A stretch of DNA of 11,393 nucleotides from DAOVGU01 sp030637775 [NCBI: bacterium] (GTDB taxonomy: Bacteria > Ratteibacteria > UBA8468): assembly GCA_030637775.1 (NCBI GenBank), contig DAOWFY010000106.1, positions 1 through 11,393 of the forward strand, given 5' to 3'. This document shows positions 277 to 9,604 of this stretch, piece after piece (the first letter of the stretch is position 1; the number at the start of each line of letters is the position of its first letter). Under the pieces are notes generated by a model that made no database searches, was not told the DNA's origin, and saw only the letters and a list, made by a program, of their open reading frames with translations. A program made the translations under genes and the position numbers.

Positions 277-1674
277 CTAAAGGGGATATTCCTCCAGGTA
301 TTTGGGGACGATTACCTCACTTTTCAGGCTCTTCCTTAAAGTGGAAGCGAAGTCTGCGGCCACTTCTTTCTCGCCGTGGATAATGAATGTTTTTTCTGGT
401 GGTTTCTTGAAACCCGAAGCCCATCTTAAAAGCTCATCTCGATCAGCGTGCGCAGAGATACCATTTATTTTCTCAATCCTTGCCCGCACCGGATATATCT
501 GCCCAAGAATTCTCACCCTTTCAGGTCTCTCAAGAATTTCTCTCCCCAGGGTTCCCTTTGCTTGATAACCCACAAAGAGGATTGTGCTCTCTGGTCGCGT
601 GATATTGTGTACCAGATGGTGTTTTATTCTTCCTCCGGTGCACATCCCTGAGCCAGCCATGATAATTGAAGTCCCCTTGATGTAATTTATTGCCTTTGAT
701 TCTGCAACTGACCTTGTTGTCTTGAGCAACGGGAACTCAAATGGAGAATCCCCTCTTCCCATGAGCGCTTTTGCTTCTTTATCAAAATAGTCAGAGTATT
801 CCTTAAAAACTTCGGTAACGTTTATTGCCATTGGACTATTTACAAAAACAATAAGGTGGGGAATCTTATCCTCTCTTAATAATTTGCTGATATAGAAAAG
901 AAGTTCCTGCGCTCTCTCGATAGCAAAGGTGGGGATAACGACATTTCCTCCTGCCTCTTTCGTCTCTACGATCACCCGCTGAAGTTTTTCTACAGGAACC
1001 TCTTTTTCTTCATGGAGTCTGTTTCCGTAGGTAGATTCCATGAAAACATAGTCTGCTTTCGCAAAAACTGTCGGATCGCACAGGATAGGTCTGTTCCATC
1101 TCCCGATGTCTCCAGAAAAAATGCATCTTTTCTCCTTTCCGTCCTCAGCTATCTTCAACTCAATCATTGCCGCACCCAGGATGTGCCCCGCGTCGTAAAA
1201 AGTTGCTTTTATATCGGAAGAAATCTGAATTTGTTTCTGATACGGGACATTCTCAAAATAGGAAAACGCATTTTTTGCATCGTCAATCGTATATAGCGGA
1301 ACTTCTGGGTAGGCTCCCTTTCTTCCTTCACGCCTGTGCCTTTTCCTTTTGAATTTTGCATCCTCTTCCTGTATTTTTGCGGAATCCAGAAGGGAAATTT
1401 GAGCAATTCCTGTCGTTGGAGGAGTGCAGAAAATTTTACCCTTGAAACCTTTCCGGGCCAACCTGGGCAAATATCCGCAATGGTCAAGGTGAGCGTGGGT
1501 TAAAATCACATTATCAATACCCGCAGGCTCCACAGGAAAGGCTTCCCAGTTGCGGGTGCGGAACTCTCTTTCTTGATACAAACCGCAATCTATCAGAATC
1601 CGTGATTTACCACTCTCCACAAGGAATCTTGAGCCGGTGACATTTTCTGCGGCTCCAAGAAATGTAATTTTCAT
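277..1674 (-). CDS. MBL-fold beta-CASP ribonuclease (CPSF-like)
   Basis: The 465-residue protein is a metallo-beta-lactamase enzyme with a beta-CASP insertion and a C-terminal RMMBL segment, the arrangement of CPSF73-like RNA nucleases. Metal-site motifs are all present: HAHLDH at 60-65, DAGH with H164, SGD with D189, acidic motif A E213 in ESTYG, a motif B-like KHH around 351-353, SAHAD with H409, and HGE with H433. A basic stretch (KRKRHRREGRK) near 109-119 may contact nucleic acid. Family members cut or trim RNA using two zinc ions; whether this one is endo- or exonucleolytic cannot be told. The gene begins 8 bp after the dut stop and is last in the purD-rpsO-pnp-dut block, which places it beside PNPase and suggests a role in RNA turnover. 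No Shine-Dalgarno sequence precedes the ATG. It is distinct from RNase J, which is longer. Confidence 0.93.
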   Translation of the reverse strand: MKITFLGAAENVTGSRFLVESGKSRILIDCGLYQEREFRTRNWEAFPVEPAGIDNVILTHAHLDHCGYLPRLARKGFKGKIFCTPPTTGIAQISLLDSAKIQEEDAKFKRKRHRREGRKGAYPEVPLYTIDDAKNAFSYFENVPYQKQIQISSDIKATFYDAGHILGAAMIELKIAEDGKEKRCIFSGDIGRWNRPILCDPTVFAKADYVFMESTYGNRLHEEKEVPVEKLQRVIVETKEAGGNVVIPTFAIERAQELLFYISKLLREDKIPHLIVFVNSPMAINVTEVFKEYSDYFDKEAKALMGRGDSPFEFPLLKTTRSVAESKAINYIKGTSIIMAGSGMCTGGRIKHHLVHNITRPESTILFVGYQAKGTLGREILERPERVRILGQIYPVRARIEKINGISAHADRDELLRWASGFKKPPEKTFIIHGEKEVAADFASTLRKSLKSEVIVPKYLEEYPL

Positions 1675-1682
1675 TATTCTGA

Positions 1683-2117
1683 CTAAAATAAACCGGAACT
1701 ACCCCAGCCTTTCCTTCCCCGGGAAGTTGATGAAAGTCTCTTTTTTTCGACAACCTTTACCTTTCTGGTAGGTAGGATCAAAAGTTGGGCGATGCGGGAA
1801 CCTTTCTTTGTGCGAAAGGTCTCCCTTCCTAAGTTGATGAGAAGGATCCCTATTTCTCCCCGGTAATCTTCATCGATCACACCGGCAAGAACATGCAACC
1901 CCTTTCTTGCTAAACCACTGCGATCCTTGATAAGACCAACAGAACCTTTGGGAAGGGCAAAAGAAAAACCGGTAGGAATAAGAAATTTTTTCTCTGGTTC
2001 GATAACGATATCTACAGATGTTCTTAAATCAAGTCCATTTCCGTTCTGGCAGGCGGGAAGAGGTAAATCAGACTTTTTAATTCGTTTAATTGAGAGAATC
2101 TCATCGTTTTTCTGCAT
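1683..2117 (-). CDS. dut: Deoxyuridine triphosphatase (dUTPase)
   Basis: The 144-residue protein is a trimeric-type dUTPase that hydrolyses dUTP to dUMP and pyrophosphate, keeping uracil out of DNA and feeding thymidylate synthesis. The five family motifs are in order: GLDLRT (28-33), DRSGLARKG (65-73), AGVIDEDYRGEIG (78-90) with the catalytic Asp and substrate Tyr, GSRIAQ (106-111), and the C-terminal arm RGRKGWGSSG (133-142). The arm departs from the usual RGxGGFGSTG: a Lys replaces a Gly and Trp takes the place of the Phe that stacks on the uracil. Length is normal. The start overlaps the 3' end of pnp by 17 bp with no good ribosome binding site, so translation is probably coupled to pnp. 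Confidence 0.95.
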   Translation of the reverse strand: MQKNDEILSIKRIKKSDLPLPACQNGNGLDLRTSVDIVIEPEKKFLIPTGFSFALPKGSVGLIKDRSGLARKGLHVLAGVIDEDYRGEIGILLINLGRETFRTKKGSRIAQLLILPTRKVKVVEKKRLSSTSRGRKGWGSSGLF

Positions 2118-4179
2118 CTGTCAATGCTCGTTTCCTGCTTAAACTGATCTTGCCATCTTTGATTTCCTTCACTTTAACCTTTACCTCATCTCCAACTTTA
2201 AGTATATCTTCAACTTTACCTACATATTTATTGTCAAGTTCCGAAACATGAACAAGGCCCTCTTGACCAGGAAGAATTTCAACAAAGGCACCAAAGGGCA
2301 TAATCTTGGTTACCCTGCCTGAGTAAAGGTTGCCTACAACCGCCTCTTCCACCAAGGATTTAATAATCTTCAAGGCGCTGTTTCCTGCCTCCTGGTCGGT
2401 AGAAGCGATTTTTACTTCCCCATCATCATCAACATCAATCTTAGCCCCGGTTTCATTGATGATTTTTCTGATGGTTTTCCCCCCGGGACCGATAAGTAAT
2501 CCAATTTTATCCTTTGGTATCTGTAAGCTGGTAATCTTGGGGGCATAAGGGGAAAGAGATTCTTTTGGCTCCGAGATGGTTTCGGCCATTTTCTCCAGAA
2601 TTGTAATTCTAGCCTCTTTATTCTGCAGAAAAAGTTCCTGCAAAATCTCCCCGGTGATTAAAGCGGATTTCACATCCATCTGAATGGCCGTAACACCTTT
2701 GGCTGTCCCGGCAATTTTCAAGTCAAGGTCGCCAAAATGGTCTTCTTCTCCGGCAATATCGGTAAGAAGCAACTTCTTCTTCCCCTCCTGAATAAGCCCC
2801 ACTGTTATCCCTGCCACAGCAGATTTAATCGGAACACCGGCATCCATCAAGGCTAAAGAACCTCCGCAGACCGTGGCCATCGAAGAGGAACCATTGGAAG
2901 AAAGGATATCACTTACCACGCGAATTGTATAAGGAAACTTTTCCTCTGAAGGTATAACAGCAGAAAGGGCTCGTTCCGCCAAAACCCCATGGCCAATATC
3001 TCTCCGGCTTGGACCACGGCTGGGGCGAATCTCCCCTACGGAGAAAGGAGGAAAATTGTAGTGAACCATAAATCGCTTTGAGGACTCCTCCAAGAGAGTA
3101 TCAATAATCTGCTCATCGCTTGTTGTCCCTAAGGTCACAAGAACAAGGGCTTGCGTTTCGCCTCGCGTGAAAAGGGCCGAACCATGTGTCCGGGGTAAAA
3201 GCCCTGCCTCACAGGAAATCTCCCGTAAATCTTTGGCTTTTCTGCCATCCAGCCTTTTCCCTGTATCTAAAATTAGTTTCCGGATAGTTTCTTTTTTAAT
3301 CTCTTCATAAAAGTTATTTATTATCTCTTCACTATTTTCTGTCTCTGGAGAAGTAAACTTCTCCAGAGTCTCCGAAGAGAGATTCTTCCAGAAATTATCC
3401 CTTTTACTTTTCTCCGGGAAGTTATAAGCGTCCTTTACTCTGGGAGAAAGATATTCCTGCATCTTCCTCCATAACTCCGGAGAACTCTCCTGGTAGGAAA
3501 ATATCTTTTTCTCCTTCTTGCCTTCCCATTCTTTCTGGGCATTAATAAGCAATTTGATCGGTTTCTGAGCAAGGTCGATTGCCTCCAAGATTAAATCCTC
3601 AGGCAAAAAAGAACTCCTCCCCTCAAGCATAACCACTGAGGTCCCGGTTCCCGCCACAACAAGATTAAGTTTGCTCTCCTCCAACTGAGAGAAGGTTGGG
3701 CTAATGAGGAGTTTTTCATCCATATAGCCTACTCTTACCGCTCCCACCGGACCAAAAAATGGAATATCGGAAAGAGATAAAGCAACCGAGGCACCAATAA
3801 GAGCAAGAATGTCCGGGTCATTCTCAGTATCCGCAGAAAAGACAAGGGAGGTAACCTGAACTTCATTTTTATAATTCGGAGGAAAAAGAGGTCTAATGCT
3901 TCGATCAATAAGGCGGCTGGTAAGAACCTCCTTCTCGGTGGGTCGGCCCTCCCGTTTAAAGAACCCCCCGGGAAATTTACCTGCAGCAGAGGTATGCTCC
4001 CGATAGTCTACGGTCAACGGAAAAAATGTTGCCCCTTCCTTTGCTTTCTCAGAAGCCACTACCGAGACAAAAACAACAGTGTCTCCACAACGAACCGTTA
4101 CTGCGCTGTCAGCCTGTTTAGCCATCCGGCCGGCCTCAATGCTCAGGGGCTTCCCACCAATCTCAATCTCTTTCTTCAT
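2101..4179 (-). CDS. pnp: Polynucleotide phosphorylase
   Basis: The 692-residue protein is PNPase, the phosphate-dependent 3'-5' exoribonuclease that forms trimeric rings. Visible domains are RNase PH 1 (about 10-215, with [12 protein letters not shown] at 73-84), an alpha-helical linker (about 235-300), RNase PH 2 (about 310-535), a KH domain (about 545-610, [14 protein letters not shown] at 560-573) and an S1 domain (about 615-685, [15 protein letters not shown]). The catalytic half keeps [14 protein letters not shown] at 428-441 and the acidic cluster EEDHFGDLD with D480, D484 and D486. Length is typical. The ATG overlaps the rpsO stop as ATGA, so there is no spacer for the rpsO-pnp stem-loop used in E. 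coli for RNase III-dependent autoregulation. dut begins inside its 3' end. Confidence 0.98.
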
Positions 4180-4445
4180 CTTCTCAGTTTTAGCTTCGCG
4201 ATGAGCTTCTCATATCTTGCAGGATCCTCTCTCTTCAGATAATTAAGCAGTTTTCGGCGTCTTCCAATGAGAATAAGCAATCCCCGTCGGGAGCCATAAT
4301 CCTTTTTCTGTCTCTGAAAGTGTTTGGTCAATTCCTCAATCCTTTTAGTGAAAAGGGCAATTTGGACCTCGGGAGAACCTGTATCCTTCTCATGGTGAGA
4401 AAGCTCTGAAATTATCTTATTTTTTGTTTTCTTCTCTAAAGCCAT
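4176..4445 (-). CDS. rpsO: 30S ribosomal protein S15
   Basis: The 89-residue product is S15, which binds the central domain of 16S rRNA early in small-subunit assembly. It has the family's usual length and the motifs [16 protein letters not shown] (17-32), the [19 protein letters not shown] core and a basic C-terminus. The start is fixed by the standard MAL... N-terminus. The order rpsO-pnp is one of the most conserved bacterial pairs. The ATG has no Shine-Dalgarno sequence: the upstream bases are TATAATAAAAAAC, which reads as a -10 box set 7 nt before the start. The gene is therefore probably expressed as a leaderless mRNA. If so, it lacks the 5'-UTR pseudoknot by which S15 represses its own translation in E. 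coli. Confidence 0.98.
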
Positions 4446-4452
4446 GTTTTTT

Positions 4453-4481
4453 ATTATATCATATTAACTTTTTTTAATCAA
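4453..4481 (-). promoter_or_regulatory. Sigma70-type promoter for rpsO, predicted leaderless start
   Basis: On the - strand, TTGATT (4481-4476) lies 17 nt from a perfect TATAAT (4458-4453). A TG one base before the -10 gives the extended form TGATATAAT. The -10 is followed by AAAAAAC and then the rpsO ATG, so the expected start point, about 7-8 nt downstream of the -10, is at the A of the start codon. The elements overlap the last codons and stop (4466-4464) of purD. The promoter would separate expression of rpsO-pnp-dut-nuclease from purD. The elements are seen directly; activity and exact start are inferred. Confidence 0.8.
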
Positions 4482-5747
4482 TCTCAATGCCTTCTGGCCA
4501 ATATCTCTCCGGAAGTAGCAACCTTCAAAACCGATTTTTTTAACCGCCTCATAGGTATTCTTGATTGCTTCCTTAACCGTTTTCGCCAACCCCGTAACTC
4601 CTAATACCCTGCCCCCATTGGTAAGTAATCTTCCTTTTTCTTTCTTCGTACCCGCATGGAAGATAAAGACATCCTTTATCTTTTCTACCTCTCTTAAACC
4701 AAAAATGGCTTTGCCCTTTTCATACTTACCTGGGTAACCGGCCGAGACTAAAACAACGCAGAGAGCCGCCCGAGAATCCCAGCTTGCTTTTATCTTATTT
4801 AAATTCCCGCTAATCACTGCCTCCATTATCTCCACTAAATCATTCTTAAGCAAGGGTAGAATCACCTGGGTTTCAGGATCTCCAAAGCGAACATTGAACT
4901 CTAAAACCTTTGGCCCTTCCTCAGTAATCATAATTCCAATATAAAGTACTCCCTGATAGAGAATGCTCTTTCTTCTTAAAGCCAAAATTACTGGTTTGGC
5001 AATTCGGTTAATTACCTCCGAGAAGAGTTTCTCGGTCACGATAGGTGTCGGGGCAACCGCCCCCATCCCGCCAGTATTTGGGCCCCTATCTCCTTCGCCA
5101 ATCTGCTTATGATCCTGAGAGGCAAGCATCGGCAGAATATCTTTGCCATCGGTAAAGAGAATAATTGAGGCCTCCTCGCCCTTTAGACATTGTTCCACCA
5201 CTACTCTCTTCCCCGCCTCCCCGAATATCCTTTCTGCAAAGATTTTATCGAGGGCTTCTTCTGCTTCCCTTCGATTGTGGCAGATAAAAACACCTTTCCC
5301 CGCGGCCAATCCATCAATCTTAATTACTCCGGGAAATCCTTTTTTCTCTAAATAAAAAAGTGCTTCTCGGGAATTGGTAAAGACAGAGAATTCTGCGGTA
5401 GGGATAGCAAACTCTCTCATCAGTTCCTTAGCAAAGACTTTGGAGGATTCTAATTTGGCGGCTTGTCTTCCGGGAGCAAAGATACATAAGCCCTGCTTGC
5501 GGAAGAGATCTCCAATGCCTTTGGCCAAAGGAGCTTCCGGCCCAACAACCGTCAAATCAATTCTTTGGCTTTTAGCAAAAGAGGCTAAAGCCCTGATGTC
5601 TGTGGGAGAAATATCCTGACATTTTGCTACTTTAGAGATTCCACCATTGCCGGCAGCAGCATAGATCCTCTTTACCCTCGGACTCTGAGCCAATTTCCAA
5701 ATGATGGTATGCTCCCGACCGCCATCACCAATAACCAAGCACTTCAT
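4464..5747 (-). CDS. purD: Phosphoribosylamine-glycine ligase (GARS)
   Basis: The 427-residue protein is GAR synthetase, which joins glycine to 5-phosphoribosylamine with ATP in the second step of purine synthesis. The order is an N-terminal nucleotide-like fold with GDGGREH (7-13), the ATP-grasp region with KIDGLAAGKGV (143-153), the signature DRGPNTGGMGA (220-230), metal-site FNVRFGDPETQ (284-294), and a C-terminal GARS-C domain with GGRVLGVTG (378-386). Length is the family norm, with no fusion to purM or purN. It is the first gene of the left-hand block. A TATACT just before the ATG is too close to be its -10, and only a weak GGG precedes the start. The upstream 321 bp carry hairpins but no riboswitch I recognise. 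Confidence 0.98.
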   Translation of the reverse strand: MKCLVIGDGGREHTIIWKLAQSPRVKRIYAAAGNGGISKVAKCQDISPTDIRALASFAKSQRIDLTVVGPEAPLAKGIGDLFRKQGLCIFAPGRQAAKLESSKVFAKELMREFAIPTAEFSVFTNSREALFYLEKKGFPGVIKIDGLAAGKGVFICHNRREAEEALDKIFAERIFGEAGKRVVVEQCLKGEEASIILFTDGKDILPMLASQDHKQIGEGDRGPNTGGMGAVAPTPIVTEKLFSEVINRIAKPVILALRRKSILYQGVLYIGIMITEEGPKVLEFNVRFGDPETQVILPLLKNDLVEIMEAVISGNLNKIKASWDSRAALCVVLVSAGYPGKYEKGKAIFGLREVEKIKDVFIFHAGTKKEKGRLLTNGGRVLGVTGLAKTVKEAIKNTYEAVKKIGFEGCYFRRDIGQKALRLIKKS

Positions 5748-8230: not shown

Positions 8231-8259
8231 ATTTTACTACTTTTAAAACCGATTGACAA
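8231..8259 (-). promoter_or_regulatory. Likely promoter for rpoZ (divergent)
   Basis: On the - strand, TTGTCA (8259-8254) lies 17 nt from TAAAAT (8236-8231), a five-of-six match to each sigma70 box. The expected start is near 8223, giving a leader of about 20 nt to the rpoZ ATG at 8201. Its -35 lies almost exactly on the -35 of the opposing tolC-like promoter. Confidence 0.62.
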
Positions 8260-8282
8260 GTAAGGGGATAACAAACTATAAT
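8253..8282 (+). promoter_or_regulatory. Consensus sigma70 promoter of efflux operon, near-leaderless
   Basis: A perfect TTGACA (8253-8258) and a perfect TATAAT (8277-8282) are separated by 18 nt. The -10 is followed by TAAAAAAG and then the ATG at 8291. A start 7-9 nt past the -10 leaves a leader of 0-2 nt and no room for a Shine-Dalgarno sequence. The arrangement closely parallels the rpsO promoter. No operator palindrome overlaps it apart from the near-symmetric TTGACAA shared with the divergent -35. Confidence 0.85.
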
Positions 8283-8290
8283 TAAAAAAG

Positions 8291-9604
8291 ATGAAAATGG
8301 TCTTAATTTTTATTATCCTCCTTGTCAATACAAACCTCTTTGCCGAAAAATTAAGCTTAAAAGAGTCCTTAGAGATTGCCCTCGAGAACAACCCAGGGAT
8401 TCATCGGGCAAAAGAAAAGATTGCAGAGGCAAGAGCAAAGAAAAGAGAAACCTTTACCTCTTTCTTACCTAAATTGGGCAGTGCTTCAACATTTACTGAG
8501 CTTAGCGAAGAAACTGAATTTTATGGGATGACGATTACCGGCAAGGAACTGTATGACCTTAATCTGTATCTCACACAGCCTTTGTTTACCGGAGGGGAAT
8601 TAACCGCCCTCTATCGCCAGGCAAAAGAGGCGGTAGCAGCAGCGAAAGCAAATTACAAAAAAGTAGAGATTGACCTTATCTTTAAGGTAGAAAAGGCTTA
8701 TTATAATGTTTTAAAAGCAGAAAAGATTTGCGCCGTGGGTAAAGAAGCGGTAGAGCAACTTCTTGCCCATTTGAAAGTAGCAGAGAATTTCTACAGAGCA
8801 GGAATGGTGCCCAAGATGGATCTGTTAAAAGCGCAGGTGCAATTAGCCGATACCGAACAGAAGTTGGTAGAGGCGAAAAATAGATTGGAGTTAGCAAGAA
8901 TTTCCTTCAATAACCTTTTGAACAGAGATTTATCCGCTCCGGTAGAGCTGGTCGATATCTCGAGTTACACCCCCACCTATCTCCGGGGGGCTCACTCCCC
9001 TGGAGGGAGTGCATCCCCCGGATTAAGGAGAGGGGGATTAGAGGACTCTATTGAAAAAGCGTTTAGTCTGCGGCCAGAGTTAAGGGCGCAAGAGATAAAT
9101 TTAAAAATAGCAAAAGAAGACCTGCGCATTGCCAAGAGTGAATACCTACCCACTATCTCACTGATCACTAATTATGATCACGAGAAAGGCTCTGAAATTC
9201 CTATCGATAAATGGCACAATAGTTGGAATGCTGTAATTGCCTTCGAACTGAATATCTGGAACTGGGGAAGAACTAAGGAAAAGGTGAAGCAGGCAAAAAG
9301 CGTAATTAACCAGAGTCAAGACTCTTTATTTCTCCTTAAGAATAGGATTGAATCAGAAATAAGAAATGCTTTTCTAAATTTACAGAGCGCAGAAAAGAGA
9401 ATTCTTGTTACCGAGAAGGCTGTGGACCAGAGCAAAGAGGGTCTGCGGATGACAGGGTTGAGGTTCAAGGAGGGAATGGCAACAAGCACCGATGTTCTGG
9501 ATGCGACAACTCTGCGGAGTCAAGCAGAAACCAATTACTATCAAGCCCTGTATGACTGCTACCTCGCAGAAGCAGCACTAAAGAGGGCGATGGGGGAAAA
9601 ATGA
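8291..9604 (+). CDS. TolC-family outer membrane efflux protein
   Basis: The 437-residue protein has a signal peptide (about 1-18, cut after LFA) and the two internally repeated outer-membrane-factor halves (about 20-225 and 250-437). Each half has long coiled-coil helices; YYNVLKAEK (137-145) and the repeat RFKEGMATSTDVLDATT (391-407), matched in the first half by FYRAGMVPKMDLLKAQ (167-182), are typical. Such proteins form trimeric beta-barrel and tunnel exit ducts for efflux or type I secretion. It is first in a tolC-adaptor-RND operon and overlaps the adaptor gene as ATGA. The linker between halves contains an unusual Gly/Pro/Ser-rich insert (about 227-249) coded by a palindromic element. 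Start choice is helped by the adjacent promoter; a second Met at residue 3 is possible. Confidence 0.95.
   Translation: MKMVLIFIILLVNTNLFAEKLSLKESLEIALENNPGIHRAKEKIAEARAKKRETFTSFLPKLGSASTFTELSEETEFYGMTITGKELYDLNLYLTQPLFTGGELTALYRQAKEAVAAAKANYKKVEIDLIFKVEKAYYNVLKAEKICAVGKEAVEQLLAHLKVAENFYRAGMVPKMDLLKAQVQLADTEQKLVEAKNRLELARISFNNLLNRDLSAPVELVDISSYTPTYLRGAHSPGGSASPGLRRGGLEDSIEKAFSLRPELRAQEINLKIAKEDLRIAKSEYLPTISLITNYDHEKGSEIPIDKWHNSWNAVIAFELNIWNWGRTKEKVKQAKSVINQSQDSLFLLKNRIESEIRNAFLNLQSAEKRILVTEKAVDQSKEGLRMTGLRFKEGMATSTDVLDATTLRSQAETNYYQALYDCYLAEAALKRAMGEK
8970..9036. repeat. In-frame nested palindrome inside tolC-like gene
   Basis: TCCGGGGG (8982-8989) pairs with CCCCCGGA (9015-9022); inside it CACTCCC (8993-8999) pairs with GGGAGTG (9005-9011) around loop CTGGA. 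Outside, CCCCC (8970-8974) faces GGGGG (9032-9036) and CTCC (8981-8984) faces GGAG (9027-9030). It codes for about 23 residues (TPTYLRGAHSPGG... to GLRRGG) of low complexity at the boundary of the two structural halves, where insertion is likely tolerated. The local GC content is far above that of the rest of the gene. It resembles in-frame palindromic elements such as Rickettsia RPEs in behaviour, not in sequence. Confidence 0.72.

Follow-up and report, generated by a model that had tools for sequence, protein, structure and literature searches.

Does the ribosomal protein gene rpsO begin, at this locus, on a messenger without a 5' leader? We addressed this question in an 11,393-nt stretch of DNA (the window), in which rpsO encodes ribosomal protein S15 (89 aa; Pfam PF00312, 116.7 bits) at 4176..4445 on the minus strand, with its ATG at 4445-4443. 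An earlier note on this DNA had described a promoter ending 7 nt before this ATG, with an extended -10 TG and without a Shine-Dalgarno (SD) sequence, and every one of these elements was confirmed. On the minus strand, the -35 box TTGATT (4481-4476) lies within the final codons of purD and is followed by a 17-nt spacer (4475-4459). The purD stop codon (4466-4464) sits in this spacer, in agreement with the note's placement of the promoter on that codon. The TG (4461-4460) stands one base 5' of the -10 box TATAAT (4458-4453), which was found both in the sequence and by our promoter scanner; seven nucleotides, AAAAAAC (4452-4446), then separate the -10 box from the start codon and hold no SD. The scanner scored the whole arrangement, TTGATT-N17-TATAAT with TG, at 10/12.

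The start codon itself appears secure: the ATG is the correct start, as residues 1-89 of the product align with those of genus and family relatives, and E. coli S15 aligns to it from its own residue 1. Pyrimidine-purine steps are favored transcription start sites, and such a step falls on the A of the ATG, which is the 8th base after the -10 box in the window's genome (G000) and the 7th in a member of the same genus (G001). In the window this is a C-A step, and its A is the predicted transcription start. GGAG, GAGG, and AGGA were all absent at positions -18 to -5 of rpsO in G000, in G001, and in a member of another genus of the same family (G002).

The earlier note had also suggested aligning the purD-rpsO junction across relatives, and the outcome favored its proposal. 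The junction reads TTGATA-N17-TATAAT-6 nt-ATG in G001 and TTGACA-N17-TATTAT-8 nt-ATG in G002, each at 11/12, and the TG is common to all three family members. The two boxes, the 17-nt spacing, and the TG were thus kept in both relatives although the purD-rpsO gap and the flanks diverged. In both relatives purD stops before the promoter, so the -35 box there is not kept by purD coding. The distances of 6, 7, and 8 nt between the -10 box and the start codon, although known from the only three genomes that carry the trait, fit a transcription start on the start codon. We infer the actual start site from these distances together with the boxes, their spacing, and the many similarly placed promoters in the genome described below, and the start at the ATG that the earlier note had predicted is well supported on these grounds.

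In our judgment, the explanation that is probably correct is that rpsO is expressed as a leaderless mRNA from a housekeeping extended -10 promoter, with initiation that does not depend on an SD. A sigma-70 type promoter would start the rpsO-pnp-dut-beta-CASP run at, or a base or two from, the rpsO AUG. The rpsO message would be read without a leader, most likely by ribosomes binding the 5'-terminal AUG; the SD leader that rpsO retains in the sister families would, in the window's family, have been lost or have never existed. The genes behind rpsO follow closely on the same strand. The pnp gene for polynucleotide phosphorylase (2101..4179) comes directly after rpsO, as it does in E. coli, and overlaps its end by 4 nt; dut, for dUTPase (1683..2117), overlaps the end of pnp; and a gene for a beta-CASP metallo-hydrolase with RNA-processing type domains (277..1674) comes next, 8 nt after dut. 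The leaderless promoter could therefore drive the RNA-turnover gene set rpsO-pnp-dut-beta-CASP (277-4445).

The promoter could also be real but start transcription 3-6 nt upstream of the ATG, from this box or from a second, overlapping match in the window, TTGAGA-N18-TATGAT, that lies 12 nt from the rpsO ATG. Such a very short leader is unlikely, in our view, though the overlapping match in G000 speaks for it, as does the 8-nt gap in G002, which permits a leader of 2-3 nt. Neither G001 nor G002 has a counterpart of the overlapping match at 9/12 or better. Moreover, translation would still proceed without an SD, and the biology would be little altered.

We consider it quite unlikely that rpsO is mainly co-transcribed with purD (4464..5747, minus strand), with the promoter-like site weak or silent and SD-less translation achieved by coupling or through the A-rich upstream region. 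The two genes share a strand and are only 18 nt apart, and no terminator-like site was scored between them in the window, where the 90 nt at the purD end fold at -13.7 kcal/mol. Yet the corresponding regions of G001 and G002 form hairpins of -27.6 and -24.1 kcal/mol that include the purD stop region and end just before the -35 box, thereby standing between purD and the promoter, and the boxes stay constant while the gap changes. No T-run follows either hairpin, so a terminator function can only be proposed. The earlier note's division of the cluster into two transcription units may hold: it gains from the hairpins ahead of the promoter in the two relatives, but is weakened by their lack of T-runs and by the lack of any scored terminator in the window, where read-through from purD is possible. 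Our likelihoods for these explanations overlap, as purD read-through and a leaderless start can co-occur. Separately, the end of purD ahead of rpsO in G001 (L159, C122; upstream of 10553, minus strand) carries a pronounced inverted repeat that was not seen in G000 and that may be either a terminator or a small mobile repeat.

A chance look-alike in A+T-rich DNA is very improbable: the purD-rpsO gap is indeed A+T-rich and promoter-like sites showed no clear excess across the window (18 found vs. 14.8 +/- 3.4 expected), but when the 110 nt upstream of rpsO were shuffled 20,000 times (first order), 39 of the shuffles produced a site of at least 10/12 at 5-9 nt and just 4 also had the TG, and a promoter with an equal spacer was kept in three genomes. 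Since the window as a whole lacks a clear excess, a consensus match alone proves little, and it is position and conservation that carry the case.

Promoters in the leaderless position proved to be frequent in this genome. We analyzed 621 kb of G000 with a hexamer-scored gene caller, whose starts are unverified gene by gene, and defined 333 leading genes as those with no upstream neighbor on the same strand within 15 nt. The best promoter was 4-12 nt from the start in 35 of them, farther in 76, and nearer in 1, with none recognized in 221; the leaderless position thus accounts for 35 of the 112 leading genes with a recognizable promoter. At 5-12 nt, G000 had 38 sites of at least 9/12 compared to 3.8 in shuffles, and 25 compared to 1.1 at a threshold of at least 10/12. 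A stricter comparison of the 4-12 nt range with the density at 30-80 nt gave 39 vs. 10.1 sites, and 25 vs. 3.9 at the higher threshold. A smaller second peak at 21-24 nt (14 vs. 2.2) represents a leadered class. By contrast, when 250 kb of E. coli K-12 was run through the same caller, none of the 177 leading genes had a promoter at 4-12 nt, compared to 2.5 predicted from the E. coli density at 30-80 nt. Two cruder approaches were set aside. A genome-wide search for TATAATN{4,10}ATG gave 152 matches vs. 91 for the reversed pattern, a crude excess in place of which the gene-anchored counts were used, and a caller that began every long open reading frame at its earliest ATG gave a weak peak only and was replaced by the hexamer-scored one.

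In smaller samples, the best promoter was at 4-12 nt for 6 of 85 leading genes in G001, 5 of 50 in G002, 6 of 69 in G012 (family f3), and 6 of 83 in G014 (family f5). Because the excess over the 30-80 nt density was weak in G012 (8 vs. 4.2 sites; 4 vs. 1.6 at 10/12 or better) and in G014 (10 vs. 6.4; 3 vs. 2.1), a leaderless habit of the whole class is only suggested. Genes with a promoter in this position were also poor in SD sequences. In G000, an SD preceded 1 of the 35 leaderless-position genes vs. 32 of the 76 with a farther promoter, and the pooled counts from five genomes were 2/58 and 74/168. The Fisher p of 6e-10 for the pooled deficit is overstated, because the -10 box occupies the room in which an SD would lie. 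With the -10 box masked, 2 SDs were seen among the 58 genes pooled from the five genomes vs. 8.8 expected (p 0.005), with samples other than that of G000 too small to tell.

To place the rpsO arrangement in its lineage, we turned to other members of the class. An rpsO match was obtained in 29 of the 35 class genomes searched, the window's own included, and loci were given for 26 of these: 3 from the window's family and 23 from families f3, f4, and f5, with f2 unrepresented. Not one of the 23 sister-family loci had a promoter of at least 9/12 at 4-12 nt from the rpsO start, and 22 had an SD-like core before the gene. Many of them carry TTGACA-TATAAT with the -10 box some 20-30 nt from the ATG, and in others it is farther away. 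A usable start was present in 109 of the 110 rpsO rows examined (L002-L111, one genome appearing twice). Only 4 of these, representing the three family members, had a promoter in the leaderless position, and the other 105 were without one. On this comparison, leaderless rpsO seems to be particular to a single family.

A quick tree of pnp from 103 rows, with SH-aLRT support only, held the class together (support 100) and divided it into the window's family (100) and the other sampled families (99). Since the other rows are without the trait, a change to leaderless rpsO within the window's family would be the simpler history. The pnp tree does not fix the position of the class relative to the named phyla, and a search for 16S rRNA gave no match in the G000 bin, although it also missed 5 of 14 control genomes.

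S15 feedback on rpsO is a textbook example of how a ribosomal protein controls its own gene via a 5' leader. As outlined for E. coli, Bacillus/Geobacillus, Thermus, Rhizobium, and mycobacteria (PMC8470358, PMC4137082, PMC5100602), S15 binds leader RNA structures in the 5'UTR of its own gene. In the window the gene is the same, but no 5'UTR is expected. No Rfam S15 leader was detected in the window or at 20 loci of relatives (2 from the family and 18 from leadered sister families), and we found no structured 5'UTR operator at rpsO, where the promoter and the ATG leave no room for one. The pseudoknot described for E. coli extends into the first part of the coding sequence (PMC8470358), so an S15 site within the rpsO coding region is possible. 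Folding of the initial 80 nt of the rpsO message in search of such an operator showed nothing unusual, with no more structure than in shuffled sequences (z 0.23, 1.60, and 1.06).

The earlier note had claimed that the S15 autoregulation known in E. coli would be removed here. What stands is that no leader is expected that could hold a 5'UTR operator, yet there is no sign that a leader of a known type was present earlier, given that the leadered sisters also gave no known S15 leader; a loss of S15 feedback is thus something we only infer. A broader interpretation, which we regard as unlikely, is that leaderless mRNA is regular in this lineage and in one family spread to rpsO, where S15 feedback through a leader gave way to some other arrangement; for example, S15 might bind within the coding sequence, there might be competition at the 5'-terminal AUG, or feedback might be missing altogether.

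Leaderless genes are already known as a kind, and are described as common in Actinobacteria and Deinococcus-Thermus (PMC3160421, PMC12340547). In E. coli, five mRNAs were mapped with leaders shorter than 10 nt (PMC4681348), and together with the lower frequency of leaderless starts among translation genes (PMC3160421) this is in line with the earlier note's remark that leaderless genes are uncommon in well-studied Gram-negative bacteria. The window's lineage shares with the "TA-led" leaderless genes of Actinobacteria and Deinococcus-Thermus (PMC3160421) a -10-like signal about 10 bp upstream, the absence of an SD, and the presence of SD-led genes in the same genome. Unlike those genes, it has a full -35 plus -10 promoter of the TTGACA/TATAAT type, and the samples from the genus have 37-41% G+C. 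In addition, the TA-led study describes translation genes as less often leaderless (PMC3160421), whereas the present case is a ribosomal protein gene. Another known system has a -10 element adjoining the open reading frame, and there too a -10 a few bp upstream drives leaderless expression; its described motif is the -10, and adding a -35 raises transcription, whereas the window has a -35 at 17 nt.

What is unusual here is the gene, since known S15 autoregulation uses 5' leaders, and we recognized no report of a leaderless rpsO in the literature searched, which most subscription journals lie outside. With apparently leaderless and leadered rpsO side by side in sister families, the class provides a natural test of whether feedback through the leader is required and of how genes shift between leadered and leaderless initiation. 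In addition, this uncultured lineage joins those in which leaderless genes appear to be numerous.

Among the few other ribosomal genes that could be seen, rpsO stands out. We queried the G000 sample with 46 E. coli ribosomal proteins plus infC and a portion of S1 (48 queries in all), and 8 of these matched: rpmB, infC, rpmI, rplT, rpsB, rplL, S1, and rpsO; most ribosomal genes lie outside this sample. By eye, a leaderless promoter was present only at rpsO among those matched, where the S1 start was not reached and the infC and rpmI starts are uncertain. Upstream of rpmB, a TATAAT lies ~36 nt away with an AGAGG in the intervening stretch, and rplT, rpsB, and rplL each have an SD-like core ahead of them.

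Beyond rpsO, the leaderless position was kept patchily between genomes. We compared the 35 leaderless-position genes of G000 with orthologues of at least 45% identity that aligned from near the start, using partial sequence for G001 and G002, and the position was kept in 5 of 11 comparisons, 2 of which were rpsO within the family (3 of 8 without rpsO). It was kept for rpsO in G001 and G002, for an oxidoreductase in G001, and for a phosphoglucomutase-like and a CooC-like gene in G012, a member of another family; these names, like that of the panD-like gene below, were read from sequence. The oxidoreductase promoter in G001 lies 10 nt from the start, but an AGGAG is also present. The six comparisons in which the position was not kept were tolC in G001 and G003, the panD-like gene in G001, two genes in G002, and rpsO in G014, whose promoter is at 58 nt. 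The tolC-like efflux gene lies in the window and has a second promoter of like shape, a perfect TTGACA-N18-TATAAT (8253..8290, plus strand), 8 nt before its ATG at 8291; the G001 counterpart lies 14 nt from the start, and no promoter of this kind was scored in G003. The phosphoglucomutase-like (L131:9956, L163:14461) and CooC-like (L122:4602, L166:10762) promoters occupy the leaderless position in two of the families in this class, so some leaderless starts may be old. Finally, in two divergent gene pairs, L125:7958 (minus)/8041 (plus) and L237:2433 (minus)/2512 (plus), both genes seemingly have leaderless-position promoters within ~80 bp of shared intergenic DNA.
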